Assembly: GCA_017465505.1 (NCBI GenBank) | Contig: JAFTWB010000019.1 | Coordinates: 1-34,214, forward strand | From: Clostridia bacterium | GTDB lineage: Bacteria > Bacillota > Clostridia > Oscillospirales > Acutalibacteraceae | Length of the DNA stretch: 34,214 bases | Direction of reading: 5' to 3' | Shown: one piece after another, positions 10,744 to 34,075 of the stretch | How the letters are laid out: each line of letters opens with the position of its first letter | How positions within the stretch are numbered: the stretch's first letter is position 1 | Translations under genes and position numbers: made by a program | The notes under the pieces: model-generated | What the model was told of the DNA's origin: nothing | The model's database searches: none | The model's input: only the letters and a program-made list of their open reading frames with translations

Positions 10744-11043
10744 TTAGCCAAGTTTTTTATTCTAACACACTAACAACAGAAAAGAGAAGATTCGTTACCC
10801 AAACGAGTCTTCTCTTTCTTTTACCCGTTAAGTGATATGCTGACTAAAGTCAGCGTGATATTTTCGCTTTGCGAAAGTGATATTAAGCCCATACGGCTTA
10901 GTGATATTCCATTCGCCTATAACTTGCGAAGCAAATAACACTCGGATGAAATCCAAACATCACTGCGTGGCAATATCACTCGCCGCAGGCGAATAGAGTT
11001 GCGTGATACTCCGCTTGGAGTATCACGCATAAGCGGGGTTTTG
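10744..11043 (+). repeat. Multi-hairpin repeat element, copy A
   Basis: A 300-base non-coding element just after pheT. After a terminator-like hairpin it is a chain of short hairpins separated by GTGATAT-type linkers: GCTGACT/AGTCAGC (10839-10854), TTTCGC/GCGAAA (10862-10876), TAAGCC/GGCTTA (10883-10900). In the second half the linker appears in the opposite orientation (AATATCACT), with hairpins CGCC/GGCG and a perfect 12-bp stem GCGTGATACTCC (11001-11028). The same element, inverted, is at 13084-13345, and a copy with different stems is at 33838-34075. No protein is encoded. Confidence 0.85.
10781..10823 (+). terminator. Terminator-like hairpin at the pheT end of repeat A
   Basis: A 16-bp stem AAAGAGAAGATTCGTT / AACGAGTCTTCTCTTT (one wobble), 5-base loop, then CTTTT. 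It is nearly identical to the hairpin in copy B, which ends the gene at 13373-13993. Confidence 0.7.
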
Positions 11044-11078
11044 TTTTTTCTGCCTATGGCTAAAATGATAAAAGGGTA

Positions 11079-11107
11079 TTGAAATATTTTAAAAAGTATT
11101 GTATAAT
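11079..11107 (+). promoter_or_regulatory. Promoter of ireB
   Basis: TTGAAA (11079-11084), 17-base spacer, TATAAT (11102-11107), 61 bases before the ATG. Confidence 0.75.
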
Positions 11108-11168
11108 ACTTCTATATTGTAGTTTGCTACAAAGATTTATCCTAAATTTTCCTTCGGAGGTGTTTCGG

Positions 11169-11414
11169 ATGTTGGATAAAACTATGGTATTTTCTTTAGG
11201 CGGTGACAGGGACGTTGAGATGAAACGTGCTCTGATGATTGTTTATGACGCATTGCGTAAAAAGGGCTACAACCCCATTAACCAGATTGTGGGCTACATT
11301 CTGTCTGAAGACCCCACCTACATCACCACTTACAACAATGCCCGAAATATCATTTCCAAAATAGACAGGGACGACCTTCTGGAAGCATTGGTTAAATCTT
11401 ATCTTAAAAACTGA
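11169..11414 (+). CDS. ireB: IreB-family regulatory phosphoprotein (UPF0297)
   Basis: An 81-residue protein matching the IreB/UPF0297 family over its full length, with the signature KKGYNPINQIVGYILSEDP in the middle and DRDDLLEALVKSYL at the end. In Enterococcus IreB is a substrate of the PASTA kinase IreK and influences cephalosporin tolerance; Thr5 in the N-terminal segment is near the phosphorylated threonines there. The start is the ATG at 11169 after CGGAGG; the upstream in-frame extension covers the promoter and is not coding. In most Firmicutes ireB is followed by ruvX and a DUF1292 gene; here a different small gene follows 13 bases later. Confidence 0.93.
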   Translation: MLDKTMVFSLGGDRDVEMKRALMIVYDALRKKGYNPINQIVGYILSEDPTYITTYNNARNIISKIDRDDLLEALVKSYLKN

Positions 11415-11427
11415 CGGAGGTATTATT

Positions 11428-11715
11428 TTGGCAAATAAAGAATTTTTCACATATAAAGGCAGACCCTTGGTAAGATGTGGCGACGAGCTCTACTACGGAA
11501 GTATGGCTGAGCGTTTTGTTATCCGTATGCAGATTAAGTCAAAGAAAACAGTGGGCGACCTTGAAATCGCCGACAAGGTGACAATTCAGCTTATGTGCAC
11601 CGACCCTGACCTTTCTCCCAGAAAGCAGCTTATCAAATCCTCTGAGAAAAATGGTCTTTTCCTTGCAATTGACATTGCAGACATCTGGCTTGAGCGTGCT
11701 CTTTCCAACAAGTAA
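11428..11715 (+). CDS. Small conserved protein of unknown function
   Basis: A 95-residue protein starting at TTG (11428) behind CGGAGG (11415-11420), 13 bases after the ireB stop, and ending at a strong terminator. It looks like a compact soluble alpha/beta protein (FTYKGRPLVRCGDELYYGSM; VGDLEIADKVTIQLM; LFLAIDIADIWLERAL) with no membrane segment or signal. I recall similar uncharacterised proteins in other Clostridia but no named function. Co-transcription with ireB suggests, without proof, a link to the same cell-envelope kinase pathway. Codon use matches its neighbours. Confidence 0.8.
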   Translation: MANKEFFTYKGRPLVRCGDELYYGSMAERFVIRMQIKSKKTVGDLEIADKVTIQLMCTDPDLSPRKQLIKSSEKNGLFLAIDIADIWLERALSNK

Positions 11716-11728
11716 TATTTTTCAGACT

Positions 11729-11760
11729 ACTCCCCGAAATTTTCGGGGAGTTTTTGTTTT
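11729..11760 (+). terminator. Terminator of the ireB operon
   Basis: Stem ACTCCCCGAA / TTCGGGGAGT with a very short loop, followed by TTTTTGTTTT. Confidence 0.9.
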
Positions 11761-11815
11761 TTCTGTTGACTTAGTCGGTTTAATATGTTAGTCTTTTAAT
11801 AAAAGGGGGTATATT

Positions 11816-13081
11816 ATGAAACGTTTTCTTGCTTTGGTTATCAGCATTATTTTGCTTTTTACTTTTACAGGGTGCTCTTATATAGAAGAGTTTATTTCTT
11901 CTTTTTACCCCTCTGAGCCCACGGACGAAGAAATCTCTCTTGCTCAGCAGGAGTTTATAAATATCGGCTATTCAAACTCAAACAATGAAGATGATATCCG
12001 GTTTGTTCTTTCTCTTGATGAGCTTAAGGCTTGGGAAAATCCATATTCTCATTACAGCTCCTACATACTTTACAACACCCTCAACGAGGACGAAAAGCTG
12101 GTTTACAAAGCCTTGGAATATGCCCTTGTAAACAGCTATGAGCGGACATTTATTGATTACCGCATAGGCGTTAATATATCCAGAACCGAGGAGATTTTGC
12201 AGCTTTTAAGCCTTGACACTCCTCTTCTGGAACAAAATGTGATTTTCACTGTTTACAACAACGTTGCATTTTATGATTATGAATACAGCGACACCAGAAT
12301 CGTAGAGGTACTTCACCGAAGCAACTGCGTAAGTGTACAGAACTTCACCCACATACAGTGGAATCAGAAAGTGCAGGCTCTTGAGTTTGCTCAGGAATTT
12401 GTGGATTCACTGGATGAGGATATGACCCAAATCCAAAAGGCAGAAGCCATTTACAGGCACATTGCCGAAAACGTCACCTACATTCCTTATGAAAATGAAT
12501 TCGGCCACTACAAAGGTGCTCTTGAAAACTTTCTTTTCGACGCCTTTGTAACCAAGGAAACCCACTGTGACGGCTTCACCAACGCCCTTGCTCTTCTTTA
12601 TGAAATGGCAGGCTTTGAGCAGGTGGAAAAGCGAAACACCATTACAATGCAACACACCTGGAACTTTGTGAAAATCGAGGATAAGTGGTACAACATCGAA
12701 GGCACTGCAGGCGGATACATCCCAAAAGAGGACTGCACAATGGGCTCGGGACTGATGTTTGCCACTCCCGATATTTATTTTGACGACTACTGCGAATTCA
12801 AGGAGCTTTACCCCAAGGCAAAAACCTCTTACTATATGAATCCCGACGGCGAAACCGAAAGCTGCAACAGCGACGATTTCTTCGACCTTCTCCTTGAGGG
12901 ATTTGAAAAGCACAACGACGAGTGGGCAATTGTGATTGTGGACGAGTTTGTTGAGGATGACGCAAGAAGAGAGCTGAGCAATATTGCCGACTATTACTGG
13001 GAGTCGATGTATTACTACAAAAAAGACACCGCCGACGACAGAGTTCTTCTGATGTATTGCAAAGAATATATTATGAAATAA
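11816..13081 (+). CDS. Transglutaminase-like lipoprotein
   Basis: A 421-residue protein with a lipoprotein signal (lipobox FTGC, Cys20), so it acts on the outer face of the membrane. The middle carries a transglutaminase-like (papain-fold) core: ETHCDGFTNALALLYEMAG with Cys251, QHTWN with His280, and KWYNIEGT, where the third triad position is Glu295 instead of the usual Asp. The N-terminal 180 residues are an unassigned helical region (NEDEKLVYKALEYALVN) typical of secreted clostridial transglutaminase proteins. Such proteins may be proteases or amidases of the envelope; the substrate is unknown. The start has AGGGGG upstream. A weak TTGACT lies at 11766, but no good -10 is placed. Repeat B begins 2 bases after its stop. 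Confidence 0.85.
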   Translation: MKRFLALVISIILLFTFTGCSYIEEFISSFYPSEPTDEEISLAQQEFINIGYSNSNNEDDIRFVLSLDELKAWENPYSHYSSYILYNTLNEDEKLVYKALEYALVNSYERTFIDYRIGVNISRTEEILQLLSLDTPLLEQNVIFTVYNNVAFYDYEYSDTRIVEVLHRSNCVSVQNFTHIQWNQKVQALEFAQEFVDSLDEDMTQIQKAEAIYRHIAENVTYIPYENEFGHYKGALENFLFDAFVTKETHCDGFTNALALLYEMAGFEQVEKRNTITMQHTWNFVKIEDKWYNIEGTAGGYIPKEDCTMGSGLMFATPDIYFDDYCEFKELYPKAKTSYYMNPDGETESCNSDDFFDLLLEGFEKHNDEWAIVIVDEFVEDDARRELSNIADYYWESMYYYKKDTADDRVLLMYCKEYIMK

Positions 13082-13083
13082 AA

Positions 13084-13345
13084 TCACCCCGTTGGATTGC
13101 AGAAATGTTCGCTAAGAACATTTCTGCAACTCTATTCGCCTGACGGTGAGTAATATTGCTCCGAAGGTTTTACGGCGAATAAAACATCACTAAGTCCACA
13201 GGACTTAATATCACTTTCGCAAAGGGAAAACATCACGCTGACAATAGTCAGCATATCATTTCACAGGCAAAAAGAAAGAGAAGACTCGTTTTTGTAACGA
13301 ATCTTCTCTTTTCTGTTATTAGTGTTAGAACAAAAACTTTGCTAA
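13084..13345 (-). repeat. Multi-hairpin repeat element, copy B (inverted relative to A)
   Basis: Read on the minus strand this aligns with copy A from the TTAGC-AAGTTTTT end, through the AAAGAGAAGA terminator-like hairpin, the GCTGAC/GTCAGC hairpin and the TTCGC and AAGTCC/GGACTT hairpins, to a final long stem (13099-13128, TTGCAGAAATGTTC / GAACATTTCTGCAA). The stems AAGTCC/GGACTT here and TAAGCC/GGCTTA in A differ on both sides while still pairing. It fills the space between the converging genes ending at 13081 and 13373. Confidence 0.85.
13266..13311 (-). terminator. Terminator-like hairpin in repeat B
   Basis: A 16-bp stem (13275-13290 with 13296-13311), followed on the minus strand by CTTTTTGC. 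It would end transcription of the lipoprotein gene at 13373-13993. Confidence 0.7.
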
Positions 13346-13372
13346 TAAAATTATGCTTTCTTTCAACGCACC

Positions 13373-13993
13373 TTAGTTTCTCTGATTCTTAAGTGAGGTG
13401 ATGACGGCTTCGTTGGTTTCAAAAACCGCCTCCGTGTCGGTATTGCCTGTAAGGTTGATTTTCTCGTAAGTACCGCCTAAGTCTGTACCTTCGGTGCTGA
13501 AAGCCTCGGCAAACTGATACAGGGGTTTTCCCTCTTTGTCTGCCTGCTGATAAGTAAGATAAGTGCGGTTTTTGGATAGCTCGTCACCCTTTACAAGATA
13601 GCTCAGACCGCTGGAATCTGTATAAATCCAGAGGCTTGCCACGCCACTATCTTTTGAGGTGATTTCTTCATCCAGCAGGTCAGCCAGACCCATATCAAAG
13701 CCGCAGACCATAACTCTGTCAACTTCCTTGCCCTTTTCGCTTGAGTAAGCAATGAGCATTTCGTACTGGCTATCTCCTGTAAAGTCCAGAAGCCTTACAA
13801 CTGCCGCTCCGCAAAGTGCGTTTTCTAACGCCTGTGCTTCGCCGTATTTTTCTACATAGCTCTGATATGTATCATAAAAAGCCATTGCTCTGTCTGAATT
13901 TCCCAGGTCGTAACGCTTATTTGCACCTGAATTACAGGCACAAAGCCCTATAACACAAAAAACAGTAAGAAGCAATGCAACAATTCTTTTCAT
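13373..13993 (-). CDS. Predicted lipoprotein of unknown function
   Basis: A 206-residue protein with a lipoprotein signal (lipobox LCAC, Cys20), predicted to be anchored outside the cell. The mature part has one VRLLDFTGDSQYEMLIAY motif, an Asp-Gly/Asp loop like those in FG-GAP or integrin-type repeats, but only once. The rest is a mixed domain (SSGLSYLVKGDELSKNRTYLTYQ). I do not recognise a named family. It is a single gene with its own upstream region (an 80-base AT-rich gap to the ORF at 14121) and ends in repeat B. Confidence 0.78.
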   Translation of the reverse strand: MKRIVALLLTVFCVIGLCACNSGANKRYDLGNSDRAMAFYDTYQSYVEKYGEAQALENALCGAAVVRLLDFTGDSQYEMLIAYSSEKGKEVDRVMVCGFDMGLADLLDEEITSKDSGVASLWIYTDSSGLSYLVKGDELSKNRTYLTYQQADKEGKPLYQFAEAFSTEGTDLGGTYEKINLTGNTDTEAVFETNEAVITSLKNQRN

Positions 13994-14065
13994 CTCAAAA
14001 ACTCCTTATTTTGTTAATGATATCATTTTACAATAAATTGCAGGATTTTGCAATAAAATTTTCTG

Positions 14066-14095
14066 TTTACAAAAGCCTGTTGCGTGAGGTATAAT
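14066..14095 (+). promoter_or_regulatory. Promoter of the NusG-II / Gx transporter genes
   Basis: TTTACA (14066-14071), 18-base spacer, TATAAT (14090-14095), 25 bases before the TTG start at 14121. Confidence 0.7.
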
Positions 14096-14120
14096 TTTTA
14101 AAAAGAAAGGGAGATGTCAA

Positions 14121-14516
14121 TTGAAAAAAAATCGACCCTATTTCAGAAAAACCGACATTTTAATAATTCTTCTTGTCCTTTTGATTTCCGCAGGAGCAAT
14201 TGTACATCTTGTTTTAAGTCATTATAAAAAAGAAGCTCCCTCTATAGCCGAAATCAGAATAAACGCAAGGCTTGAAAAAGAAATTCACCTCGCCTCAGTA
14301 AGCGAGCCTTATGAGATTATAGTTGAGGGCAAAATCCCCGTGACCCTTAAAGTAAGCAAAGATGGCGTTCAGTTTATAAAATCAGACTGTGCCGACGGGC
14401 TTTGTCTTCACTCGGGGCTTATTGAAGCAAATGAATCTGCCGCCTGCCTTCCTGCAGGGGTTTCGGTAACCGTAAAAAGCGAAGGCAAAACTGATATTGA
14501 CACAGTGGTGGGGTAA
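14121..14516 (+). CDS. Membrane-anchored NusG domain II protein
   Basis: A 131-residue protein with one N-terminal membrane anchor (about 12-32), then an extracellular NusG-II (KOW-like) domain. The signature is ADGLCLHSGLIEANESAACLPAGVSV, with the conserved cysteine pair of this family. It starts at TTG with AAAGGGAGA upstream. NusG-II proteins in Firmicutes are usually next to the Gx transporter gene, as here, and the pair occurs in flavin-based extracellular electron transfer loci, where as I recall they are called EetA and EetB. The biochemical role is unknown. It ends 3 bases before the next ATG. Confidence 0.85.
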   Translation: MKKNRPYFRKTDILIILLVLLISAGAIVHLVLSHYKKEAPSIAEIRINARLEKEIHLASVSEPYEIIVEGKIPVTLKVSKDGVQFIKSDCADGLCLHSGLIEANESAACLPAGVSVTVKSEGKTDIDTVVG

Positions 14517-14519
14517 GTT

Positions 14520-15044
14520 ATGAGCAAGGTTAAAGTAAACAAAAAACTGATTCTTATAGCGCGCACTGCACTTTTGTCAGCGGTGGCAGTGGTGCTTGCA
14601 ATTCTTGAAAGCTTCATCCCCGATTTGCCCTTTGTGCTTCCGGGTATGAAGCTGGGTTTGGGGAACATTGCGGTGCTCCTTTGCGTTGAGCTTTGCCCTC
14701 TGCCCTGTGTCCTTTACGTTGCTCTTGTCAGGGCTCTCTTTACCCTTGTGACAAGAGGCGGAGTGGCTTTCTTTATGAGCTTTGCAGGTGCAATAGTGAG
14801 CTCACTTGTGATGTATGCTCTTGCCCACACAAAGAAGCTCCGATTCGGATGTCTTGGCATAGGAGTTTCAGGTGCACTGAGTCATAATCTCGCACAGCTT
14901 TGTGTTGCCTATTTTATTGTAGGCAACGCCGTGTGGGCGTATCTGCCTGTGATTACTCTTTTTTCTCTTGCTACAGGTGCACTCACCTCTCTGGTGCATT
15001 ATTTCACGCTCCCTTCTGTTGTGAAGATACCTCTCCTGCACTAA
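14520..15044 (+). CDS. Gx transporter family / heptaprenyl diphosphate synthase component I-like membrane protein
   Basis: A 174-residue integral membrane protein with about five hydrophobic segments and the family signature FVLPGMKLGLGNIAVLL near residues 38-54, followed by RGGVAFFMSFAGAIVSSL. The family resembles ECF-transporter S components; the older name (heptaprenyl diphosphate synthase component I) reflects its common neighbourhood with polyprenyl synthase genes. Its start is 3 bases after the NusG-II stop, so the two are co-translated. No polyprenyl synthase, ApbE or FMN-binding lipoprotein gene is in the window, so the complete electron transfer locus is not seen here. Confidence 0.87.
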   Translation: MSKVKVNKKLILIARTALLSAVAVVLAILESFIPDLPFVLPGMKLGLGNIAVLLCVELCPLPCVLYVALVRALFTLVTRGGVAFFMSFAGAIVSSLVMYALAHTKKLRFGCLGIGVSGALSHNLAQLCVAYFIVGNAVWAYLPVITLFSLATGALTSLVHYFTLPSVVKIPLLH

Positions 15045-15077
15045 GCTTGCAAATTTATTTTTTGAAGGTGAAATTTT

Positions 15078-15476
15078 ATGAAAGCAAAAAAGAAAACAGG
15101 CTCAAAATTCCTGAAAATATTGATTCTTGTGGTTGTACTCGCCCTGGTGGCAGTGGCAGCCATTGCCGTTTCCGATATGATTTTTCCAAAAAACAACGAA
15201 AATATGGAGCTTGACACAATTACAATAAGAGTTTCTTCCAAGGACATTTTCTTAAACGGCAGTGAAAAGGTCACTCTTTCAGAGCTTGAAGATAATCTGC
15301 AACAGCGGTATGATAATAAGGATTATTTCACAATTGCTCTTATTAACGATACAAAGCACCCTGCGGACATCGACACCTATAATTCCGTGGTAGAAATTTT
15401 AGGCAAGTTTGGTATTCAGCAGGAGCCTCTCACCCTTCCTGCCACAAAAGACGAAGCAACAAAAGACCAAAGCTGA
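15078..15476 (+). CDS. Single-pass membrane protein with ExbD/TolR-like external domain
   Basis: A 132-residue protein: a basic N-terminus, one membrane helix (about 12-34), then an extracellular domain. That domain (DTITIRVSSKDIFLNGSEKVTLSELEDNLQQ; KDYFTIALINDT; YNSVVEILGKFGI) follows the pattern of ExbD/TolR periplasmic domains, with strand, 'L(N)G', helix, strand, helix, 'G(I)'. No ExbB/TolQ partner gene is nearby and the membrane Asp typical of ExbD is not evident, so energy-coupled transport is not implied. It lies 33 bases after the Gx transporter gene with GAAGGTGA as binding site, probably in the same operon. Confidence 0.65.
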   Translation: MKAKKKTGSKFLKILILVVVLALVAVAAIAVSDMIFPKNNENMELDTITIRVSSKDIFLNGSEKVTLSELEDNLQQRYDNKDYFTIALINDTKHPADIDTYNSVVEILGKFGIQQEPLTLPATKDEATKDQS

Positions 15477-15490
15477 GGAAAAATTTACTA

Positions 15491-15520
15491 TTGACAAGTA
15501 AACCGATAATGGTTTATAAT
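15491..15520 (+). promoter_or_regulatory. Promoter of the metK S-box transcript
   Basis: TTGACA (15491-15496), 18-base spacer, TATAAT (15515-15520). Confidence 0.85.
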
Positions 15521-15563
15521 TATCTTTGGTCGGCAAAATCTGACCTTAAAACTGAAAATTTAC

Positions 15564-15695
15564 CGCTTATCAAGAGTGACGGAGGGAACAGGCCCGTTGA
15601 AGTCCGGCAACCTGCATTTTGTAAGGTGCTAAATCCTGCGGAGAACCGAAAGATGAGTTTGTAGCCGCTGTCGGTTTCTGACGGCGGTTTTTATT
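15564..15695 (+). promoter_or_regulatory. SAM-I (S-box) riboswitch of metK
   Basis: Contains the highly conserved S-box core: CTTATCAAGAG at the P1/P2 start (15566), GACGGAGGGA, GGCCCGTTGAAG, CCGGCAACC (15604-15612) and AAGGTGCTAAATCC. The P1 partner GATGAG (about 15652-15657) pairs with CTTATC with one wobble. It is followed by a terminator (CCGCTGTC / GACGGCGG, then TTTTTATTTT). High SAM would keep the terminator formed and switch off metK and the gene behind it. Confidence 0.97.
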
Positions 15696-15727
15696 TTGCA
15701 AATTTTATTTATGAAAGGAAGATATAT

Positions 15728-16918: not shown

Positions 16919-16921
16919 GCT

Positions 16922-17404
16922 ATGAAGAGAGAAAACTATTTAAGCTGGGACGAGTACTTTATGGGCATTGCACTTTTAGCTGCTCAGAGAAGCAAAGACC
17001 CCAACACACAGGTGGGTGCCTGTATCGTTTCAGAGGATAACATAATTATTTCCACAGGGTACAACGGTATGCCCAAGGGCTGCAGTGACGACGAGTACCC
17101 TTGGGAAAGAGAAGGCAGGGACACAAAGTATCCTTACGTTGTTCACGCAGAGCTTAACGCAATTTTAAATGCCCACGGCAGAAGCTTACAGGGCAGCAAG
17201 CTTTACGTTACCCTCTTTCCCTGCAACGAATGTGCCAAGGCGATTATCCAGAGCGGTGTAAAGGAGTTTTACTACCTTTCGGACAAATACGCCGACACTC
17301 CCTCTACCCTTGCCTCAAAAAGAATGATAGAGTCCGCAGGAGTTAAGTTCACTCAGCTTGACACCACCATCGACTCCATTACATTAAATTTTAAAATCAA
17401 CTGA
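16922..17404 (+). CDS. Deoxycytidylate (dCMP) deaminase
   Basis: A 160-residue zinc-dependent deaminase of the ComEB/dCMP deaminase family, converting dCMP to dUMP for thymidylate synthesis. The zinc and proton-shuttle motif is VVHAELNAI (HAE) and the second zinc motif FPCNECAKAI (PCxxC), with the N-terminal QRSKDPNTQVGACIV and GYNGMP substrate segments. The ATG lies 3 bases after the metK stop and has no clear AGGAGG of its own, so translation probably depends on metK. That places it under the SAM riboswitch, which is unusual for a nucleotide enzyme. A terminator follows. Confidence 0.93.
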   Translation: MKRENYLSWDEYFMGIALLAAQRSKDPNTQVGACIVSEDNIIISTGYNGMPKGCSDDEYPWEREGRDTKYPYVVHAELNAILNAHGRSLQGSKLYVTLFPCNECAKAIIQSGVKEFYYLSDKYADTPSTLASKRMIESAGVKFTQLDTTIDSITLNFKIN

Positions 17405-17412
17405 TAAGCAAA

Positions 17413-17987: not shown

Positions 17988-18635
17988 CTATCCAACAACA
18001 TCACCATCATCAACCGGATAAAAAATATAATCGGGTTCAGCCCATAATATATCTACATTTGCCCTATAATCCAATGTTTTAATAGCATTTAATACGTTCT
18101 CTTCGCTGGGTGTTTCTAAATATAAGTAATATGCTGTAACTTTTATATTGTTAAACTCAGCATAAGTTTCGACAGATTCAAGATTTAACTCAGGAAAATC
18201 TTCTTTAGCATACTCAATACCTTTTATTTGTTTCACACCAACAACTATGCGGTTGTTTTTAAAACTATCTGATGTGTGAACGCTCTTTGAAAACTCATCC
18301 TGACTCGCCATTACAAGTTCTGTGCCGAAAAGTGGCGAGGCTTCGTATTTAGCAAGATATTTCTGGATTGCAGTGGCGTTTTTTACGGAGTAGCCTGTAC
18401 CATCGGGGTCGGCAAGATATCTCTGCACCGCTGTTACATAAGTAACCTTTGCCAAGCCTTTCTGAATCAGGGTGGCGTCCTTGATTGTAACATCACCGTC
18501 TAAATCTACGTCGCCGTAAATAAATTTTTCAGGCTGAACGTATCCGCTCTCTGCACTTGCCGAAATCAAGGAAGGAGAAGTAGCAATAGCAAAAGCGATA
18601 ACCAAAGAAATTAAACTACATATTACTCTTTTCAT
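17988..18635 (-). CDS. Secreted dockerin-type protein with subtilase-propeptide-like domain (paralog 2)
   Basis: A 215-residue protein with a signal peptide (about 1-28, cut near SASAES). Residues 40-95 hold two dockerin-like calcium repeats: DVDLDGDVTIKDATLIQKG and ADPDGTGYSVKNATAIQKY. The C-terminal domain (about 125-205) has NRIVVGVKQ, DFPELNLESVETY, YYLYLETPSEENVLNAIKTL and VDILWAEPDYIF. This is the pattern of subtilisin-type N-terminal propeptides / I9 domains (strand, hydrophobic core, paired helix, final AEPxYI), which fold and inhibit proteases. No protease domain follows. It lies 19 bases after its paralog, with AAAGGAGAT as binding site. The dockerin match is firm and the propeptide match moderate. 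A cohesin-bound protease inhibitor or a surface-attached adaptor is possible. Confidence 0.82.
   Translation of the reverse strand: MKRVICSLISLVIAFAIATSPSLISASAESGYVQPEKFIYGDVDLDGDVTIKDATLIQKGLAKVTYVTAVQRYLADPDGTGYSVKNATAIQKYLAKYEASPLFGTELVMASQDEFSKSVHTSDSFKNNRIVVGVKQIKGIEYAKEDFPELNLESVETYAEFNNIKVTAYYLYLETPSEENVLNAIKTLDYRANVDILWAEPDYIFYPVDDGDVVG
18309..18569. repeat. Direct repeat, copy in paralog 2
   Basis: 261 bases encoding the end of the signal peptide and both dockerin repeats. It matches 18943-19203 with about seven mismatches and no gaps. Confidence 0.9.
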
Positions 18636-18654: not shown

Positions 18655-19269
18655 CTAATCTTGAGTTTGTATAAAACTAGCAGAGGCAGATACCAAATCA
18701 ATATTAGCTCTATAATCCAAAGCTCTCAATGCCTCAATTATATTTTCTTTTCCAGAGTTCTCTAAGTACAAATAATATCTGCTATCGTTATACTCGCACT
18801 TAACTACTTTGCTAAAGTTATACTCTGGAAAATCTTCTAAAGTATACTCTTGATTACTACCTGCTTTTACACGAACTATAATTTCATCCAATACATAATC
18901 ACTATCTGTGGACACACCGCTTGAAAATTTATTTTCCGTTGTCATTACAAGTTCTGTGCCGAAAAGTGGTGAGGCTTCGTATTTAGCAAGAAATTTCTGG
19001 ATTGCAGTGGCGTTTTTTATGGAGTAGCCTGTACCCTCGGGGTCGGCAAGATATCTCTGCACCGCATTTACATAAGTAACCTTTGCCAAGCCTTTCTGAA
19101 TCAGGGTGGCGTCCTTGATTGTAACATCACCGTCTAAATCTACGTCGCCGTAAATAAATTTTTCAGGCTGAACGTATCCGCTCTCTGCACCTGCCGAAAT
19201 CAAAGAAACTCCTCCGAGAGTAAGAATCATAGCCAAGGCTAAGGATAAAATTTTAATGTATTTTTTCAT
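18655..19269 (-). CDS. Secreted dockerin-type protein with subtilase-propeptide-like domain (paralog 1)
   Basis: A 204-residue protein. I choose the ATG at 19269 (signal KKYIKILSLALAMILTLGG, GGAGG 7 bases upstream) over an in-frame ATG 14 codons earlier that has no binding site. After the signal peptide the dockerin half is almost identical to its neighbour. The C-terminal domain (DEIIVRVKAGSNQEYTLEDF; YYLYLENSGKENIIEALRAL; ANIDLVSASASFI) shares the same fold pattern but has diverged strongly, and the final AEPxYI is degraded to ASASFI. It is the first gene of the two-gene minus operon, divergent from padR. Confidence 0.82.
   Translation of the reverse strand: MKKYIKILSLALAMILTLGGVSLISAGAESGYVQPEKFIYGDVDLDGDVTIKDATLIQKGLAKVTYVNAVQRYLADPEGTGYSIKNATAIQKFLAKYEASPLFGTELVMTTENKFSSGVSTDSDYVLDEIIVRVKAGSNQEYTLEDFPEYNFSKVVKCEYNDSRYYLYLENSGKENIIEALRALDYRANIDLVSASASFIQTQD
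18943..19203. repeat. Direct repeat, copy in paralog 1
   Basis: Partner of 18309-18569. Identity stops at the border of the C-terminal domain. Confidence 0.9.
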
Positions 19270-27967: not shown

Positions 27968-27988
27968 TTTCTTTTATCTTTTATTCTT

Positions 27989-29596
27989 TTATCTTCTGTA
28001 CTGTTCTATAAGTTTATCAATTTCCTTGGTAAGATTACGCATATCCTTGTTGGGGATTCCTGCACTGCCCTCAGCAAGAGCAAGAAGCTTTCTGGCACTT
28101 GACACAAGAGTTTTCTGCAAAGGACTTGCAAACTGCTTACTGCTCTGCACCTTTTGCTTTACAGGTATGCCCTCGGTGATTTCTATAAACTCACCCTTTA
28201 TTAAATCGTAGCTTGTGCCGCTGAATGGTGCAAATGCCTTAACGCCGATTTCCTGCTCAACTGCCTGAGAAAAATCTCTCACTGCCTCGTCATCACCGTG
28301 ATTTACAAAGACAAGAGATGGCTTTTTCTCAAAGCCCTTGAGCCAGTTAATAAGGCCCTCTTTGTCTGCGTGGCCGCTGACACCTATCAGCTCGCAAACT
28401 TCGCAGTTAACGGCAATTTCGTCCCCGAAAAGCCTCACTGACTCAGCTCCGTCGTGAATCTTACGTCCCAGTGTACCCTCTGCCTGATATCCCACAAAAA
28501 GCACAGTGCACTCCTTACGCCAGAGGTTATACTTAAGGTGATGACAAACTCTGCCTGCCTCGCACATTCCACTGGCAGAAATAATCACTTTGGGTGTGGT
28601 GTTCATATTAAGCTGACGGCTTTCTTCTCCCGAAACAGTGACGTTAAGACCGTCAAACCACAAGGGATTGTTGCCGTCCTTCATAACTGCCTTGAACTCC
28701 TCATCAAGACAGCTTGTGTCGCACTGAAGGTAAATTCCCGTTGCCTCATTGGCAAGAGGACTGTCCACATATACAGGGAAGTTGTGGTGATTCTTCACCA
28801 GTCCCTTTTCCTTGATTTCACGGATGAAGTAAAGCATTTCCTGAGTCCTGCCCACGGCAAAGGAAGGGATAATCAGGTTTCCGCCTCGGTCCAGTGTCCT
28901 CTGGATTACAGAAGCTAAAACCTGCACACTATCCTGCCTTTTGGCGTTGTGAAGTCTGTTACCGTAGGTAGATTCAATTACAAGATAATCCGCCTCTTTA
29001 ACAAAAGAGGGGTTGTTGATTATAGGCTGGTTTGTGTTGCCAACGTCTCCCGAAAAGACGATTTTCTTTGAGACGCCGTTTTCCGTAAGAAAGATTTCAA
29101 TGGCGGCACTTCCCAAAAGATGGCCTATATCAGTAAAGCGAAGAGAAATGCCTTCTTCCACTGTAATCATCTCAAGATAAGCACAGGGTCTGAAAAGCTC
29201 CAGTACACCCTCGGCGTGTTCAAGAGAAAACAGAGGCTCAACCTCTGCCTTACCTGCACGCTTTGCCTTGCGGCTTCTGAATTTTGCCTCGCTCTCCTGA
29301 ATAAAGGCACAGTCCCTGAGCATTATCTGACAAAGGTTAGAGGTTTCATAAGTTGTTATAACCGTACCCCGAAAACCCTCTTTATAAAGCAAAGGCAGAT
29401 TGCCCGAATGGTCCACGTGAGCGTGGGTGAGAAAAACATAGTCGATTTCATTTGAGTTTACAGGAGGCAGAGTGTTTTCAAAAACATCCCTGCCCTGCTC
29501 CATTCCGCAGTCCACAAGAATATTCTTGCCGTTTACTTTGATATAGGTACAGCTTCCTGTAACCTCGTGGGTTGCTCCTAAAAATTTAACTTCCAT
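27989..29596 (-). CDS. Metallo-beta-lactamase fold beta-CASP nuclease/hydrolase
   Basis: A 535-residue protein of the CPSF73/RNase-like MBL family. The metal motif is THAHVDHSGNLPLL (HxHxDH), followed by VESTYGNRLH, the beta-CASP domain (IIPSFAVGRTQEMLYFI; SASGMCEAGRVCHHLK) and the RMMBL-type C-terminal motif VSGHADKEGLINWLKG. The family processes RNA; this length class lacks KH domains, so it is distinct from RNase J. Its binding site AAAGGA lies inside the end of the LOG gene, whose stop is one base away, so the two are tightly coupled. Confidence 0.92.
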   Translation of the reverse strand: MEVKFLGATHEVTGSCTYIKVNGKNILVDCGMEQGRDVFENTLPPVNSNEIDYVFLTHAHVDHSGNLPLLYKEGFRGTVITTYETSNLCQIMLRDCAFIQESEAKFRSRKAKRAGKAEVEPLFSLEHAEGVLELFRPCAYLEMITVEEGISLRFTDIGHLLGSAAIEIFLTENGVSKKIVFSGDVGNTNQPIINNPSFVKEADYLVIESTYGNRLHNAKRQDSVQVLASVIQRTLDRGGNLIIPSFAVGRTQEMLYFIREIKEKGLVKNHHNFPVYVDSPLANEATGIYLQCDTSCLDEEFKAVMKDGNNPLWFDGLNVTVSGEESRQLNMNTTPKVIISASGMCEAGRVCHHLKYNLWRKECTVLFVGYQAEGTLGRKIHDGAESVRLFGDEIAVNCEVCELIGVSGHADKEGLINWLKGFEKKPSLVFVNHGDDEAVRDFSQAVEQEIGVKAFAPFSGTSYDLIKGEFIEITEGIPVKQKVQSSKQFASPLQKTLVSSARKLLALAEGSAGIPNKDMRNLTKEIDKLIEQYRR

Positions 29597-29597
29597 T

Positions 29598-30179
29598 TTA
29601 GCCGTCCTTTAACTCCTTGACACTGAGGGAAATGCCCTCAGCTTCTTCGATATAGCTGAAAACTTCCTCAAAATTATAAACAAACTTGAAAAGTGACTTA
29701 CAGTTTTCGTTAATAAAACCTTTAGCCATAGAAACATCCATAACTGCGTGAAGCTCGTCGTAATAGCCTGCGATGTTGTAAATTGCAATGGGCTTGTCGT
29801 GACGACGAAGCTGTTTTAAGGTGAGCACCTCGAAAAACTCCTCAAATGTGCCGATACCACCGGGCACAATTAAAAATGCGTCGCTCATTTCTTCCATAAT
29901 CATCTTTCTGTCACGCATAGAGTCGGTTTCAATAAGGTCGTCGCAATTTTCAAACAAAGCCTCGATATTCTCATCCTCAAAAAACTTGGGGATAATACCG
30001 ATTACTTCTCCATTACAGCTTTTTGCACCTCTTGCAGCAGCACCCATAAGTCCGTTACCACCGCCGCCAAAAACCAGAGTATGACCTCTTTTTGCAAGCT
30101 CAGCACCCAAGGCCTCGGTTTCTTTAATGAACATAGAATCAATTTTTGGAGACGCAGCCCCGAATACACAAATTTTCAT
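29598..30179 (-). CDS. LOG-family (TIGR00730) nucleoside-monophosphate phosphoribohydrolase
   Basis: A 193-residue Rossmann-fold protein with the family signatures VFGGGGNGLMGAAARGA (about 39-55) and PGGIGTFEEFFEVLT (about 107-121, the PGGxGTxxE catalytic motif). The family cleaves nucleoside 5'-monophosphates to base and ribose phosphate; plant and some bacterial members release cytokinins, but most bacterial ones are uncharacterised. ATG at 30179 with GGAAGG. It heads the cluster LOG, beta-CASP, MATE, lipid kinase. A -10-like TATAAA is upstream without a confident -35. Confidence 0.92.
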   Translation of the reverse strand: MKICVFGAASPKIDSMFIKETEALGAELAKRGHTLVFGGGGNGLMGAAARGAKSCNGEVIGIIPKFFEDENIEALFENCDDLIETDSMRDRKMIMEEMSDAFLIVPGGIGTFEEFFEVLTLKQLRRHDKPIAIYNIAGYYDELHAVMDVSMAKGFINENCKSLFKFVYNFEEVFSYIEEAEGISLSVKELKDG

Positions 30180-30274
30180 AGCAAATAATCCTTCCAGAGA
30201 ATTTTTATTTTATAATTGTACCATAATTTTTTTATTTAGTACAGTTATATTTCACATTTATCACAAAATTTTCA

Positions 30275-30309
30275 AAAAAACAAGGCAGCAAAGCAAAACT
30301 TCGCTGCCT
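30275..30309 (-). terminator. Terminator after the DUF6514-like gene
   Basis: On the minus strand an 11-bp stem AGGCAGCGAAG / CTTTGCTGCCT (one wobble), then TGTTTTTTTG. Confidence 0.82.
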
Positions 30310-30351
30310 CTTAAAGATATTTTATTCTTAGAAATCAAAAATATACCGCTT

Positions 30352-30573
30352 TTACTCAATCTCGTTAAGACAAAGCTCCCTAAAATGCACCGGCTCAGGC
30401 TGGCACTCCTGCAAAAGAGAAGCAAAGCTCTCTGCTTTGTAAGAATCAAGAAACAAGTCCGACACTGAGCCTATAATTTTACCTGATGAGGATTCTTTAG
30501 CCACAATTCCGTAAGCTTTGTAGAATCCGATTTCTTCATTAAATAAGTCTTCCTCAATAACCTCAAAATTCAA
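30352..30573 (-). CDS. Small DUF6514-like protein
   Basis: A 73-residue protein with FYKAYGIVAKESSSGKIIGSVSDLFLDSYKAESF and the C-terminal QPEPVHFRELCL. The layout (YGI, short strand, VSDLF, a Cys then H-R near the end) resembles the small DUF6514 proteins of Clostridia, whose function is unknown. It begins at TTG (30573) with only a weak GGGG upstream, so the start is uncertain. Its own terminator follows, supporting a real gene. Confidence 0.65.
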   Translation of the reverse strand: MNFEVIEEDLFNEEIGFYKAYGIVAKESSSGKIIGSVSDLFLDSYKAESFASLLQECQPEPVHFRELCLNEIE

Positions 30574-30730
30574 ACAGGATTACCCCTAAAACGCTTTGAT
30601 TTGTGTGAGTTTTTTTCACATATTCTTTATTATACTCAAAATCAATGTCGTTTTCAATAAATATTACACGATTTAAAATATATAAAACAAATCTGTAATA
30701 AGATACAAAAAGGAAGAATTTGTCACAAAA

Positions 30731-32077
30731 TCAGTTTTTGAGTCTTTTCTCACCGCACCAGTCAGCTTTTAAGTAATATATTGTCAGAATCACTGTGCTT
30801 AAAAACCAGGTAAGGGGATAAACCCAGTTAACCACGGCGATATCCTTAGTAATGGGTACCATAACAAAAAGAAAGCTCACCCTCAACACACACCATATTG
30901 CAAGCATAGTGACCATAGGCACCACTGCCTTGCCTGCACCTCTGAGCACCGCCGATATACAGTGCGACGCCGCCAAAAGACAGTAAAAGAGAGCACAGAT
31001 TCTTGCTTTTTCCACGCCAAAGGCGACAGCCTCTTCGTCCCTTGTAAATGCCATAATAAGCAAAGGTGCGAAAACAAAGAAGAGTACGCCGATGATTTCG
31101 GCAATTGCCATTGAGATTCCTATGCCAAGCCTTGCACCCTTTTTGGCTCTGTCAAAGCGTCTTCCGCCGATATTCTGACCTACAAAAGTAGAAATCGCCG
31201 CAGTGAAGCTTGTTATAGGAAGAAAAGCAAAGCCCTCAAGCTTTGAATAAGCACCACAGCCTGCCACTGCCATATCTCCGAAATAGTTGATATTTGACTG
31301 AACAACCACATTTGCCAGAGCGATAATGGAGTTTTGCACCGCTGAGGGAAGACCGTAGCGGATAATCATACCTAACATTCTCAGGTCAAACCTCAGCTCC
31401 TTAAAGAAAATCCTGCTGTCATCCTTTGCCCTTAAAAGTCTGAAAAGGCAAAGAAAAACGCTGAGAAACTGAGAAATAACCGTGGCAAATGCGGCAGACC
31501 ACACACCCCAGCCAAAGCCTGCAATAAAAATAATATCCAGCACTACATTGCAGACTGAAGAAATAATGAGATAATAAAGAGGATGTTTGCTATCTCCCAC
31601 TGCCTGCATAACAGACATACAGGCGTTATACATAACCATACTCAGAGCTCCTGCAAAATAAACCTGAATATACTCAAGCGCACCCTGATAGATACTTTCG
31701 GGAGTGCCCATCAGCCTTAGCAAAAGAGGTGAGGCCAGCACACCCGTAACCGAAAGCAGAATACCCACAAAAAAGCTGAAAACTAAATTTGTATGTACTG
31801 CACGACGCATATTGCGGATGTCCTCAGCTCCGAAAAACTGAGAGATTAGCACACCTGCTCCCAGAGAAAGCCCCTGAAAAAAGCCTATAAGCAAAAATAT
31901 CAGCATAGCCGTGGCACTGACCGAGCCCAGAGCCACCGCACCAAGGCGGTTGCTGACTATAAGAGAGTCTGCCGTGTTATAAAGCTGCTGAAAAAGATTC
32001 CCCAGAAAAAGAGGAATTGCAAATTTAATAAGATTTTTTGAAATTGAACCCTCAGTCATCTTAATCTGTGACTGCAC
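30731..32077 (-). CDS. MATE-family efflux transporter (second)
   Basis: A 448-residue protein with about 12 membrane helices. MATE features are NLFQQLYNTADSLIVSNRLGAVALGSV near the start, LSLGAGVLISQFFGAED, and AISTFVGQNIGGRRFDRAKKGARLG in the second half. I choose the GTG at 32077, 8 bases after AGGAGG; an in-frame ATG 29 codons upstream reads through the promoter. It is divergent from the blaI-licD pair with a clear promoter and a dyad over the -35, so it may be controlled by the neighbouring regulator. Substrate unknown; it is only distantly similar to the MATE at 26579. Confidence 0.92.
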   Translation of the reverse strand: MQSQIKMTEGSISKNLIKFAIPLFLGNLFQQLYNTADSLIVSNRLGAVALGSVSATAMLIFLLIGFFQGLSLGAGVLISQFFGAEDIRNMRRAVHTNLVFSFFVGILLSVTGVLASPLLLRLMGTPESIYQGALEYIQVYFAGALSMVMYNACMSVMQAVGDSKHPLYYLIISSVCNVVLDIIFIAGFGWGVWSAAFATVISQFLSVFLCLFRLLRAKDDSRIFFKELRFDLRMLGMIIRYGLPSAVQNSIIALANVVVQSNINYFGDMAVAGCGAYSKLEGFAFLPITSFTAAISTFVGQNIGGRRFDRAKKGARLGIGISMAIAEIIGVLFFVFAPLLIMAFTRDEEAVAFGVEKARICALFYCLLAASHCISAVLRGAGKAVVPMVTMLAIWCVLRVSFLFVMVPITKDIAVVNWVYPLTWFLSTVILTIYYLKADWCGEKRLKN

Positions 32078-32117
32078 AAATGTCGCCTCCTGCACACCAA
32101 CTGCATTTATATTTCTT

Positions 32118-32164
32118 ATTATAGTACAAAAAATATTGTTGTCAATTGTAATAAAAACTGACAA
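32118..32164 (-). promoter_or_regulatory. MATE promoter with overlapping dyad
   Basis: On the minus strand TTGACA (32145-32140), 16-base spacer, TATAAT (32123-32118). An inverted repeat TTGTCA-N14-TGACAA (32139-32164) overlaps the -35 and is a candidate operator. Confidence 0.75.
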
Positions 32165-32224
32165 TTATAATGTTTAAAAAGTCAAATTTTAACCACGAAA
32201 ACAACTAATTGTCAAAAGGCAACC

Positions 32225-32252
32225 TTGACGATTATTTTAGAACTGATATAAT
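32225..32252 (+). promoter_or_regulatory. Promoter of the blaI-licD pair
   Basis: TTGACG (32225-32230), 16-base spacer, TATAAT (32247-32252). Just after it TTAC-AGTGA-GTAA (32253-32265) is a short palindrome that could be a BlaI-type site, and a 7-bp GAGTAAG/CTTACTC arm pair (32260-32308) may fold in the leader. Confidence 0.65.
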
Positions 32253-32357
32253 TTACAGTGAGTAAGAATTACCCGTTAATATCTTTATAAGTAAATTATA
32301 GCTTACTCATATCTGATTTGTATTAAATATCATTCATATATAAGGAGAATCTAAAAA

Positions 32358-32732
32358 ATGCTTACAAAGAGCGAAGAACAGATCGTAGAGCTGCTCTGGA
32401 ACAGTGACGAACCATTGACCAGCTCCGAGATTATCAGAAACTCTGTGGACAAAACCTGGAAAGACAGCTATGTTCATCTTCTGATAAACTCACTGATGGA
32501 CAAAGGCATAATTGAGGTGGCAGGCTTTAAGAAAGCTACCAAAAATTACGCCAGAACCTTTAGGCCCACTATGAGCCGTGAAGAGTATCTTGTTTTAAAT
32601 CTGACCAAAAGCAAGAACTACAGCAAGGCTCAGATGCCTGAGTTTTTCAAAACATTTATCGGTCAGACAACAGACGTCGAGCTTTTAAACGAACTTGAAG
32701 AAGTTATAAAGCAACGCAAAGCACAGCTTTAA
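32358..32732 (+). CDS. BlaI/MecI/CopY-family repressor (second)
   Basis: A 124-residue winged-helix protein of the BlaI/CopY family: TKSEEQIVELLWNSDEPLTSSEII starts the DNA-binding domain, SYVHLLINSLMDKGIIEV is the recognition and wing region, and the C-terminal 45 residues form the dimer helix. It differs clearly from the BlaI at 1744. AAGGAG lies 10 bases upstream. No M56 protease gene follows; instead licD starts 28 bases after its stop. It is also divergent from a MATE transporter. Confidence 0.88.
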   Translation: MLTKSEEQIVELLWNSDEPLTSSEIIRNSVDKTWKDSYVHLLINSLMDKGIIEVAGFKKATKNYARTFRPTMSREEYLVLNLTKSKNYSKAQMPEFFKTFIGQTTDVELLNELEEVIKQRKAQL

Positions 32733-32760
32733 AATCCGCCGCAGTACAAGGAGATTTATT

Positions 32761-33834
32761 ATGAAAAATGAAAACTTAATTTCAGAAAATGATAATTTTT
32801 TGATATGTACTGCGGCACAAACAGCCGCAGACATTTGCTCTGCTTACATCGAAAACGAAAACACAGACTTAATTAAAGATGAAATCAAAAGAAAGCTTAG
32901 TGATAAACTTAAAGAAAAACAGGAAAGCGACAAGAAGCTAAGAAAGCTTCAGAAAACCGAGCTTGAGGTTTTAATGGAGCTTGACAGAGTCTGCCGCAAG
33001 CATAACCTGAGATATTACATCGTAGGCGGCACTTTAATCGGTGCAGCTCGCACAGGGGGATTTATCCCTTGGGATGATGACATCGACGTTTCTATGCCCA
33101 GAGAGGACTTTGACAAGCTTATTGCTCTTAAGGACGAGTTTTCCCAAGACTTTTTTCTTCAGACTCACAAAACCGAAAAGGAGTGTTACTTTTTCTACGC
33201 AAAGCTTAGGAAAAACGGCACCTACTTCGGCGAGGACAAGTTTGAGCACACAGGTATCCACAAGGGAATTTTTATGGATATTTTTCCGTTGGATTACATC
33301 AGCGACAAAAGAATAATCCAGAAGCTGAGCTTTAAGAGCTTTTCTCTTATAAATGCCTTTATCTGCTCAAAGAAACTCACCTCAGAGTTTCTTTACAAAA
33401 ATATGAGCCTGCCTTTTATCGTAACTTTTCGCACTATTCAGTGTCTTCTGCCCTTGCCTCTTCTTTACGGGCTGAGAAGTATTTGTGCAAAGCTTACCAA
33501 GGCATTTTCAAACAAGCGCCTTGTGGCAAGCCTTGCAGGCTTTCACGGCTACCCAAAAGAGATTGCTCCCTTTGAGCTTTGGGCTGAGGGTACGGATATT
33601 GAGTTTGAAGGCAAAACGGTGCGAGCTCCCAAGGAGTACAAAGCCCTGCTGACTCATATGTTTGGCGACTATATGCAGTTGCCTCCTGTTGAGGAGAGAG
33701 TTAATCACACAGTTGCTGACGAGAATATCATCTTTGAAGGTGTTACAAAAGAAAACTACAAACCAAAATTCAGAAGAAAAAGAAGTCACCGCTATTATGG
33801 CGTAGACTACGACATTCTTCCTAACAAAGAGTAA
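32761..33834 (+). CDS. LicD-family phosphotransferase
   Basis: A 357-residue LicD-family protein. The core signature is LRYYIVGGTLIGAARTGG (about 82-99) followed by IPWDDDIDVSMPREDFDKL, the nucleotidyltransferase-type DxD metal site. Downstream are GIHKGIFMDIFPLDYI and a C-terminal APKEYKALLTHMFGDYM typical of the family. LicD proteins transfer phosphocholine or similar groups to teichoic acids or surface sugars. An unusual charged, helical N-terminal extension of about 70 residues precedes the core. Binding site AAGGAG at -10. It sits behind a BlaI-type gene and ends next to repeat C. Confidence 0.88.
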   Translation: MKNENLISENDNFLICTAAQTAADICSAYIENENTDLIKDEIKRKLSDKLKEKQESDKKLRKLQKTELEVLMELDRVCRKHNLRYYIVGGTLIGAARTGGFIPWDDDIDVSMPREDFDKLIALKDEFSQDFFLQTHKTEKECYFFYAKLRKNGTYFGEDKFEHTGIHKGIFMDIFPLDYISDKRIIQKLSFKSFSLINAFICSKKLTSEFLYKNMSLPFIVTFRTIQCLLPLPLLYGLRSICAKLTKAFSNKRLVASLAGFHGYPKEIAPFELWAEGTDIEFEGKTVRAPKEYKALLTHMFGDYMQLPPVEERVNHTVADENIIFEGVTKENYKPKFRRKRSHRYYGVDYDILPNKE

Positions 33835-33837
33835 TAA

Positions 33838-34075
33838 AAAAACCACCGGCTAGGCGTTGTACCCGTAAGAATACAACGCCAGTTTTATTCGCCTTACGGC
33901 GAGTTGTATTGCTTCGCAGTTATATTCGGCTAAAAGCCGAGTGTTATTCGCTTTGCGAGTTTAGGAGCGAATAAAATATCACTAAAACCGAAAGGTTTTA
34001 ATATCACTTTGCCGATAGGCAAAATAACACTGTGAGACCTGTCTCACAATATCACTATTAAAATGTTTTTTGAGA
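33838..34075 (+). repeat. Multi-hairpin repeat element, copy C (probably interrupted by the intron)
   Basis: Starts right after the licD stop. Stem GGCGTTGTA / TACAACGCC is followed by CGCC/GGCG, CGGCT/AGCCG and CGC/GCG hairpins joined by AGTTGTATT, AGTTATATT and AGTGTTATT. After the mid-point come AAAACC/GGTTTT, TTGCC/GGCAA and GTGAGAC/GTCTCAC joined by AATATCACT and AATAACACT. Order and linkers match copy B, but most stem sequences differ. The terminator-like end seen in A and B is missing here, and the group II intron begins instead. Confidence 0.82.

Follow-up and report, generated by a model that had tools for sequence, protein, structure and literature searches.

The same element occurs three times, as the intergenic copies A, B and C. 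It is composed of two inverted half-arrays, in which hairpins alternate with a constant linker with the core ATATCAC. The copies lie in the window, the 34,214-nt stretch of clostridial DNA analysed here. Based on sequence comparisons, we assign a probability of about 0.7 to the explanation that the linkers are arrays of 7-nt sites that would be bound by a protein of the 23S_rRNA_IVP/S23 family (IVP) and would spread together with it, as an "IVP element".

The first-pass annotation had described three elements sharing one plan at these places. They were recovered with covariance model R1 at 157.7 (A), 103.1 (B) and 180.4 bits (C). Element A is flanked by an ORF ending at 10738 and a gene starting at 11169. 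Its core double array occupies 10831..11000 on the minus strand (170 bp; left half 10930-11001, right half 10830-10912) and is bordered by a terminator-like right-end hairpin (10779..10822, minus strand) that adjoins the stop codon at 10738 and by a left-end hairpin (11001..11028, minus strand; GCGTGATACTCC..GGAGTATCACGC) that is terminator-like by eye and has counterparts of the same type at the left ends of L116, L142, L042, L060 and other loci. The orientation of A is opposite to that of its neighbours. The core array of B (13128..13260, plus strand; right half 13179-13261) is shortened to 133 bp. Its left-end hairpin (13097..13129, plus strand) directly follows the stop codon at 13081, and its terminator-like right-end hairpin (13270..13318, plus strand) repeats that of A in inverted orientation, with 95% complementarity across 56 bp. 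The two elements as a whole, A at 10744-11043 and B at 13084-13345, are likewise inverted copies, with 83% complementarity over a further stretch of 99 bp. C contains a full core array (33881..34056, plus strand, 176 bp) and a left-end hairpin (33853..33880, plus strand; GGCGTTGTACCCGTAAGAATACAACGCC) directly after the stop codon at 33834, with near-identical hairpins at L204, L205, L211 and L212. The 3' end of a group II intron (34076..34152, minus strand; RF00029, 43.3 bits, cut-off 40) lies inside the right end of C, and copy L008, aligned with L204, continues without it. The folding z-scores are -10.2 for A, -7.1 for B and -6.2 for C, and the window contains 33 occurrences of AATATCACT with at most one mismatch, whereas 100 shuffled versions had 8.5 on average and never more than 15. 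None of the three elements encodes an IVP gene.

Most full copies contain about four linkers in each half. The linker had been described as constant over nine bases; it is constant, but its outer T and A pair with each other and change jointly from T-A to G-C, so the constant core comprises seven bases. The left half is closed by an additional long-range stem (TTATATTCGCC..GGCGAATATAA) that covaries at one pair. The earlier observation that the stems differ and still pair holds on a larger sample: in 43 aligned copies both sides change in 28 of 40 base pairs, 95.0% of 1674 cells pair versus 75.7% after shuffling, and the covariation score is 0.439 versus 0.117 for shuffled and at most 0.093 for slid data. 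Covariation could also arise without selection if template-switch correction of palindromes kept the stems perfect and the arrays were inert debris. The near-absence of G-T intermediates would agree with such a process, but the conservation of loop class and strand and the covariation of the linkers with a protein make it very improbable.

The hairpins themselves look like DNA because their loops are mostly GNA or GNNA and G-T pairs are rare. In a census of 302 distinct hairpins, with the sequence of both halves taken from the ATATCAC strand, 69 of 132 triloops were GNA and one was TNC, and 79 of 133 tetraloops were GNNA (GNRA 44, GNYA 35) and none TNNC. G-T pairs made up 23 of 1745 pairs (1.3%) versus 168 of 2176 (7.7%) in 100 tRNAs and were thus six times rarer, in a count of near-perfect hairpins (at most one mismatch), which depresses odd pairs somewhat.

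The initial statement that the elements belong to no known repeat class needs correction. A permissive covariance-model search, unlike the Rfam search with fast filters and gathering cut-off, which had returned none, matched Rfam Gut-1 (RF01706) to each half of A and of C and to the right half of B; the left half of B gave no match in this search. The two halves of an element are matched on opposite strands: in A the right half on the plus strand (52.0 bits) and the left half on the minus strand (35.1 bits), in C 33880-33952 on the plus strand (37.3 bits) and 33940-34032 on the minus strand (28.4 bits). The right half of B is matched on the minus strand (41.9 bits). Only the right half of A passes the Gut-1 cut-off of 50 bits, the other four matches ranging from 28.4 to 41.9 bits; elsewhere L286 (72.5 bits), L204 (71.4 bits) and L004 (52.9 bits) lie above it. 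The Gut-1 consensus, with GUGAAAU linkers and three hairpins, resembles the left half of a sister class with ATTTCAC linkers, to which L286 belongs. Gut-1 was published as a probable noncoding RNA, from the human gut only (Weinberg et al. 2010, PMC2864571). The array may accordingly be transcribed as a 3' UTR or as a small RNA, Gut-1, that acts in RNA stability or regulation, and IVP, if it binds, would then bind RNA. The placement of copies downstream of genes and tRNAs, in the sense of their transcription, would suit such a role, as would the location of IVP relatives in rRNA (PMC4990558) or their annotation as Avd of diversity-generating retroelements (DGRs). However, the two halves carry the same unit on opposite strands, so that one transcript cannot hold both units, GNYA loops are nearly as frequent as GNRA loops, G-T pairs are depleted relative to tRNAs, and A is oriented against its neighbours. 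A structured RNA is therefore unlikely. Of the three guesses in the first-pass annotation, the non-autonomous mobile element and the protein-binding array seem to be one thing, whereas the structured RNA loses ground because the same unit appears on opposite strands and loops and pairing are DNA-like.

The search for further copies that the annotation had proposed yielded many. With R1, 45 of the 147 genomes from the order proved to have arrays; the nine listed genomes of the same family had none, and phylum-wide arrays were found in 2 of 299 genomes, both from the same order. Copy numbers are lower bounds because at most 18 candidates per genome were scored order-wide and at most 9 phylum-wide, which also makes the phylum-wide absences weaker. 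The copies tend to lie behind genes: among 118 distinct copies, 52 sit 30-70 bp behind an inward-reading ORF versus 4 behind an outward-reading ORF, and 16 sit 20-60 bp behind the 3' end of a tRNA or tmRNA on the same strand versus none behind one on the opposite strand. Hence, for 68 of the 118, a hairpin's length separates the start of the copy from an ORF reading towards it or from a tRNA/tmRNA; a remaining 46 are further away, closer, or without an ORF on that side.

Copies from different families are identical at 318 of 323 bp, and at the locus of A the gene pair is kept in 11 of 15 same-genus relatives, none of which has the array between the genes. A, B and C are thus quite probably gene-less (MITE-like) copies of a spreading IVP element, with mobility deduced from these comparisons. 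Beyond the IVP genes, no target-site duplication above shuffles was found in 10 of 11 loci; the flank match at the eleventh, L253, was a second array. Among solo copies, direct repeats of the left and right flanks reached significance for 7 of the 24 tRNA-type copies and for 9 of the other 76, inverted repeats were as common (7 of 24 and 25 of 76), and no target-site duplication was established. Mobilisation as REPIN/BIME-type repeats, with the hairpins as the substrate of a Y1 (IS200-like/RAYT) transposase, would account for inverted hairpin arrays with many gene-less copies, and the genome has two Y1_Tnp genes. There is, however, no array at either Y1 locus (1870 and 3357 bp), where a single isolated linker near-match with one mismatch was seen, in L145. 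REPs carry a GTAG foot, which was not seen as a constant feature of the arrays. Mobilisation of this kind is highly unlikely, and the Y1 transposase was rejected as the partner, since the array lies beside neither gene.

The likely partner of the arrays, as judged from gene neighbourhoods, is IVP/S23 (PF05635), a four-helix-bundle family. All three IVP genes of the same genome have an array upstream. In the order, 58 of 98 IVP genes have an upstream array score of at least 3 versus 0 of 196 shuffles, and 40 of 98 fall below it; without the seven loci fetched for their array, 51 of 91 reach the score. In other orders it was reached in 2 of 29 (L347 and L374). IVP is present in 39 of 45 genomes with R1 arrays versus 32 of 102 without (Fisher p 3e-10, uncorrected for phylogeny); three of the six array-positive genomes showing no IVP are less than 80% complete. 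An IVP-type gene directly behind the array on the same strand was found for 8 of 120 arrays, and the one of the eight that was scanned, L149, is PF05635 (Pfam, E 9.7e-28). The IVP of the genome that belongs to the matching protein class has Ser4, Glu65 and Gly100, and its upstream array reads ATACCAC, one base off ATATCAC. According to PMC4990558, the function of S23p/IVP proteins was not known as of 2016. In the open-access literature no paper was found that links IVP or four-helix-bundle proteins with such repeats, and a text search for the linker sequence gave nothing related among the matches listed.

As the comparison of linkers and proteins shows, the choice of the 7-nt site tracks the encoded IVP protein down to single residues. 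For all 37 proteins compared, linker base 7 is predicted by residue 4 (S with C 20, N with T 15, D with T 2), in a sample of best-scoring matches rather than a balanced set and with columns picked by scanning all protein columns against all linker positions. On the tree, residue 4 and base 7 each change seven times, and all four independent pairs on well-supported branches agree; with only four supported pairs p 0.05 is out of reach. Base 3 follows residue 65 (E with A 18, Q with T 17; exceptions E-T 1 and H-T 1) and base 2 follows residue 100 (G with T 21, T/A with C 11, S/C with A 3; G-C 1, gap 1). The tree gives one agreeing and one uninformative pair for bases 2 and 3, and too few informative pairs for bases 2, 3 and 6. 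Seven single-orientation rows were oriented by the rule "T at base 4". L244, L248 and L287 were left out as not array-like, although L287 on later inspection has a AATACCACT-type array; L098, in which the IVP frame is broken and lacks the N-terminus, was excluded for that reason. A residue-base code is also what a DNA-binding regulator would produce, and the arrays directly upstream of IVP genes could be autoregulatory operators, with the scattered ones as nucleoid-organising sites that are not mobile as such. We find this improbable in view of solo arrays distant from IVP genes, the patchy distribution, the near-identical copies across families, and the gene pair that is array-free in relatives.

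In the proposed mechanism of the IVP element, the IVP protein, a relative of which is a pentamer, would bind the 7-nt sites. The hairpins would fold once the strand is single-stranded and would space and present the sites on the ATATCAC-reading strand. With both halves bound, the ends of the element would be brought together, and the element would then be copied or recombined to new sites, chiefly beside other hairpins such as terminators. Host or borrowed enzymes are invoked for this step because IVP is not known to catalyse any reaction. On copies that have no gene, the IVP encoded by a sister copy would act in trans.

Many other IVP genes have 7-bp tandem repeats in place of hairpin arrays. 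Among 14 chosen IVP regions, of which 12 were cyanobacterial, such repeats lay upstream in 13 and downstream in 10, and they adjoin IVP genes on cyanobacterial plasmids; a period test had excluded L253, L267, L279 and L281 as array-like, and L287 remained in the array-less set. In a broader reading, for which we see even odds, one family, IVP/S23, would read 7-nt sites by a residue-base code, in which residues 4, 65 and 100 correspond to bases 7, 3 and 2, respectively, and would drive a class of selfish elements that spans the phylum. The Gut-1 "RNAs", the hairpin arrays, the IVP-adjacent 7-bp tandem repeats in other orders and the STRRs, heptanucleotide tandem repeats of heterocystous cyanobacteria, would be its cis arrays, and the intervening sequences (IVSs) of 23S rRNA and DGR Avd would be offshoots. 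Several unexplained repeat types may then join into one system, with a possible explanation for the 7-bp tandem repeats adjoining "four helix bundle" genes. For the IVP family, a ligand would be predicted, along with the length of its site and a residue-base code, an Rfam RNA family would be re-read as half of a DNA element, and a kind of mobile element without a recognisable recombinase would be added. Gut-1, S23p and tandem heptamers had each been described before; to judge from searches of the open-access literature, what is new is their connection.

Among known systems, Gut-1 resembles the left half of the ATTTCAC class and matches the halves in the window at 28-52 bits; in the present case the matching unit makes up one half of a two-sided element that has many classes of linker, occurs in other hosts and has a putative protein partner. 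REPIN/BIME with RAYT likewise combine inverted hairpin repeats at extragenic sites, many non-autonomous copies and a rare protein gene, but the protein here is a four-helix bundle instead of a Y1 transposase, and the constant sites are linkers between hairpins. In contrast to CRISPR, the spacers are hairpins with covarying arms, arranged in inverted halves. Cyanobacterial STRRs share the tandem 7-bp repeats, set beside the IVP-adjacent ones by description only, and lack the hairpin spacers. The 23S rRNA IVSs, suggested to be selfish or mobile (PMC4990558), involve the same protein family, PF05635, as the gene-bearing copy L149. They are located within 23S rRNA, from which RNase III excises them, whereas the present elements carry site arrays and lie behind genes: A, B and C behind ORFs, none within a 23S rRNA gene, and other copies behind ORFs or tRNA/tmRNA genes. 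The likeness to the DGR accessory protein Avd is at the protein level, since Avd is homologous to IVP, as indicated by tblastn matches annotated avd.

The three intergenic hairpin elements A (10744-11043), B (13084-13345) and C (33838-34075) are real and of one kind, as the first-pass annotation had proposed in assigning them a common plan. A and B are copies in inverted orientation; each of the three folds far better than shuffled sequences, and the linker, the constant sequence between the hairpins, occurs 33 times in the window with at most one mismatch (shuffle mean 8.5). Read in the orientation of C, a terminator-like hairpin precedes the left half, in which four hairpins alternate with AGT(T/G)ATATT-like linkers; the centre reads AGTTTT..GGCGAATATAATATCACT, and the right half, three hairpins alternating with AATATCACT linkers, is followed by a variable second end. 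The left half is enclosed by the stem TTATATTCGCC..GGCGAATATAA, one pair of which covaries (A-T in 21 and T-A in 17 of 43 copies). The 43 aligned copies from which the covariance model R1 was built bear out the earlier observation that the stems change yet still pair: 95.0% of the cells are paired, changes on both sides occur at 28 of 40 base pairs (282 cells), and all five measures lie beyond every one of 500 shuffles. The linker had been described as constant over 9 bases. It is constant, but since its outer bases also pair with each other (T-A replaced by G-C), the constant core is reduced to 7 nt, ATATCAC. Arrays that depart from the 4 + 4 plan in being one-sided, with as many as 16 linkers on the same strand, were observed at the fetched loci L101 (4328-4695), L068 (18-223) and L100 (2620-2757), and eleven consecutive AATATCACT-like linkers in the cyanobacterium Planktothricoides (L106, 3960-4109). 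A further conserved tail, GTCTYATACNNTAACAA.., lies past the right terminator at the right ends of L008, L005, L016, L160 and L204, and also in L004; in several copies it precedes an AAATTTG..CAAATTT-like hairpin.

In the 1.9-Mb source genome, a DNA search with A yielded 20 matches, which include the query and parts of B and C, and the covariance model yielded 60 at E <= 0.001 (both strands being counted for some elements), 13 of them above 90 bits. The same genome, G000, contains sister arrays of similar plan with linkers of the ACTTCAC, ATATCGC and ACATCAT types (C7:21215, C27:6425, C27:49118, C23:110070 and C6:48714, i.e. L160 and L163-L166; also L159, L171 and L173). Arrays were found at E <= 1e-12 in 45 of 147 genomes of the order Oscillospirales, the highest count in one genome being at least 18 matches (18 candidates were scored), and in none of the nine other listed members of the same family. 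A scan of named genomes gave at least 80 records among the matches listed, nearly all from Clostridia or Oscillospiraceae MAGs and one from a cyanobacterium. Among 118 distinct copies, 52 start 30-70 bp behind an inward-reading ORF and 4 behind an outward-reading one, 16 start 20-60 bp behind the end of a same-strand tRNA or tmRNA, and the other 46 lie closer or further away or have no ORF on the relevant side. In copies inspected by eye, the gap between gene or tRNA and array contains a terminator-like hairpin.

The gene pair flanking A is kept together in 11 of 15 same-genus relatives, and none of these 11 has the array; L008 of the source genome is identical to L204, from another family, at 318 of 323 bp, and C and L204 share 97% identity over 225 bp. 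The array-free gene pair, the near-identical copies across families and the patchy spread are signs that the element may be mobile. Comparison of the left with the right flank gave significant direct-repeat similarity in 7 of 24 copies of the tRNA type, and significant inverted-repeat similarity likewise in 7 of the 24. For the 76 other copies the counts were 9 (direct) and 25 (inverted); these 25 perhaps reflect inverted terminal hairpins. At the contig end, a group II intron 3' end (34076-34214, minus strand; RF00029, 43.3 bits) lies in the right end of C; terminators are known targets of group IIC introns. The window also contains a T-box leader (7028-7250) and a SAM riboswitch (15564-15659), both Rfam matches, and a direct repeat of two 287-nt copies with 94% identity (18287-18573 and 18921-19207) within adjacent reading frames.

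In 8 of 120 copies, the array is followed within about 50 bp by the start of a same-strand gene, and the array-linked gene of the source genome encodes a 23S_rRNA_IVP (S23) protein, PF05635 (E 9.7e-28), here called IVP. This genome has three IVP genes, each preceded by an array whose linker is distinct: ATACCAC (one base away from ATATCAC, to whose class it belongs), ACATCAT and ACTTCAT. IVP is present in 71 of the 147 genomes of the order, namely in 39 of 45 with R1 arrays versus 32 of 102 without. The 99 IVP genes considered comprise the best-scoring ones of the order together with seven that had been retrieved beforehand on account of their array; 98 had sufficient upstream sequence, which was scored by the number of linker intervals bounded by hairpins. 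Scores of at least 3 were obtained for 58 of the 98 (51 of 91 without the seven) and for none of 196 dinucleotide shuffles. Three of these 58 loci were subsequently dropped because they did not resemble arrays.

Sixteen linker spellings occur among the 55 rows. With these three loci and a broken protein removed, dereplication left 37 proteins for comparison with their linkers, the residue columns being picked by scanning all columns. Residue 4 corresponds to linker base 7 without exception (Ser-C 20, Asn/Asp-T 17). When the tree is built with the N-terminus and the remaining tested columns excluded, residue and base change seven times each, and all four independent pairs on well-supported branches agree. 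Few independent changes underlie the matches of residue 65 to base 3 (Glu-A 18, Gln-T 17, two exceptions) and of residue 100 to base 2 (Gly-T 21, Thr/Ala-C 11, Ser/Cys-A 3, one exception, one gap). This residue-base code is the strongest sign that IVP probably touches the linker.

Array-less IVP genes often have an alternative cis feature whose unit length equals that of the 7-nt linker site. Tandem repeats of 7 bp lie upstream of 19 of 39 such genes in the order and 14 of 29 in other orders, versus 0 of 55 array-bearing ones; other periods from 4 to 12 occur at most once each, and shuffles have none. In random windows of the same loci, period 7 was found in 9 of 130 and every other period in 1. 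Plasmid matches to one IVP comprise 37 records, mostly cyanobacterial (of the 30 listed, 3 are annotated as Avd, the DGR accessory protein), and those to another IVP 25. Among 14 hand-chosen plasmid IVP regions, such 7-bp repeats precede the gene in 13 and follow it in 10; in several, the copies on either side are inverted relative to each other. These sequence patterns are best explained if IVP recognises 7-nt sites and has the arrays, hairpin-spaced or not, as its putative cis elements. The sole PDB sequence found for IVP, 2rld (five chains), is named 'Uncharacterized protein'. According to a 2016 paper, S23p lacks a known function; the paper also cites a homopentamer structure and mentions an old proposal that the S23p ORF serves mobility (PMC4990558).

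The array hairpins look like DNA rather than RNA structures. In 302 distinct hairpins from 120 copies (198 from right and 104 from left halves; 25 intervals had no hairpin), G-T pairs account for 23 of 1745, versus 168 of 2176 in 100 tRNAs of the fetched loci (Fisher p 5e-23), a difference that may in part be due to selection because the hairpins were picked as nearly perfect. On the ATATCAC strand, 69 of 132 triloops are GNA and 1 is TNC, and 79 of 133 tetraloops are GNNA (GNRA 44, GNYA 35) and none TNNC. Extra-stable DNA mini-hairpins include types with cGNAg and cGNNAg loops. The GNA/GNNA loops lie on opposite strands in the left and right halves. In a permissive Rfam search, the candidate RNA Gut-1 (RF01706) gave two matches each in A and C, one per half, and one in the right half of B. 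Left-half and right-half matches again lie on opposite strands, with the polarity of the loops; one of these five matches exceeds the 50-bit cut-off, and the sister class L286 reaches 72.5 bits. Gut-1 is presented in a 2010 paper as a supported RNA structure, confined to the human gut and probably noncoding (PMC2864571). The linkers of the Gut-1 consensus read GUGAAAU.
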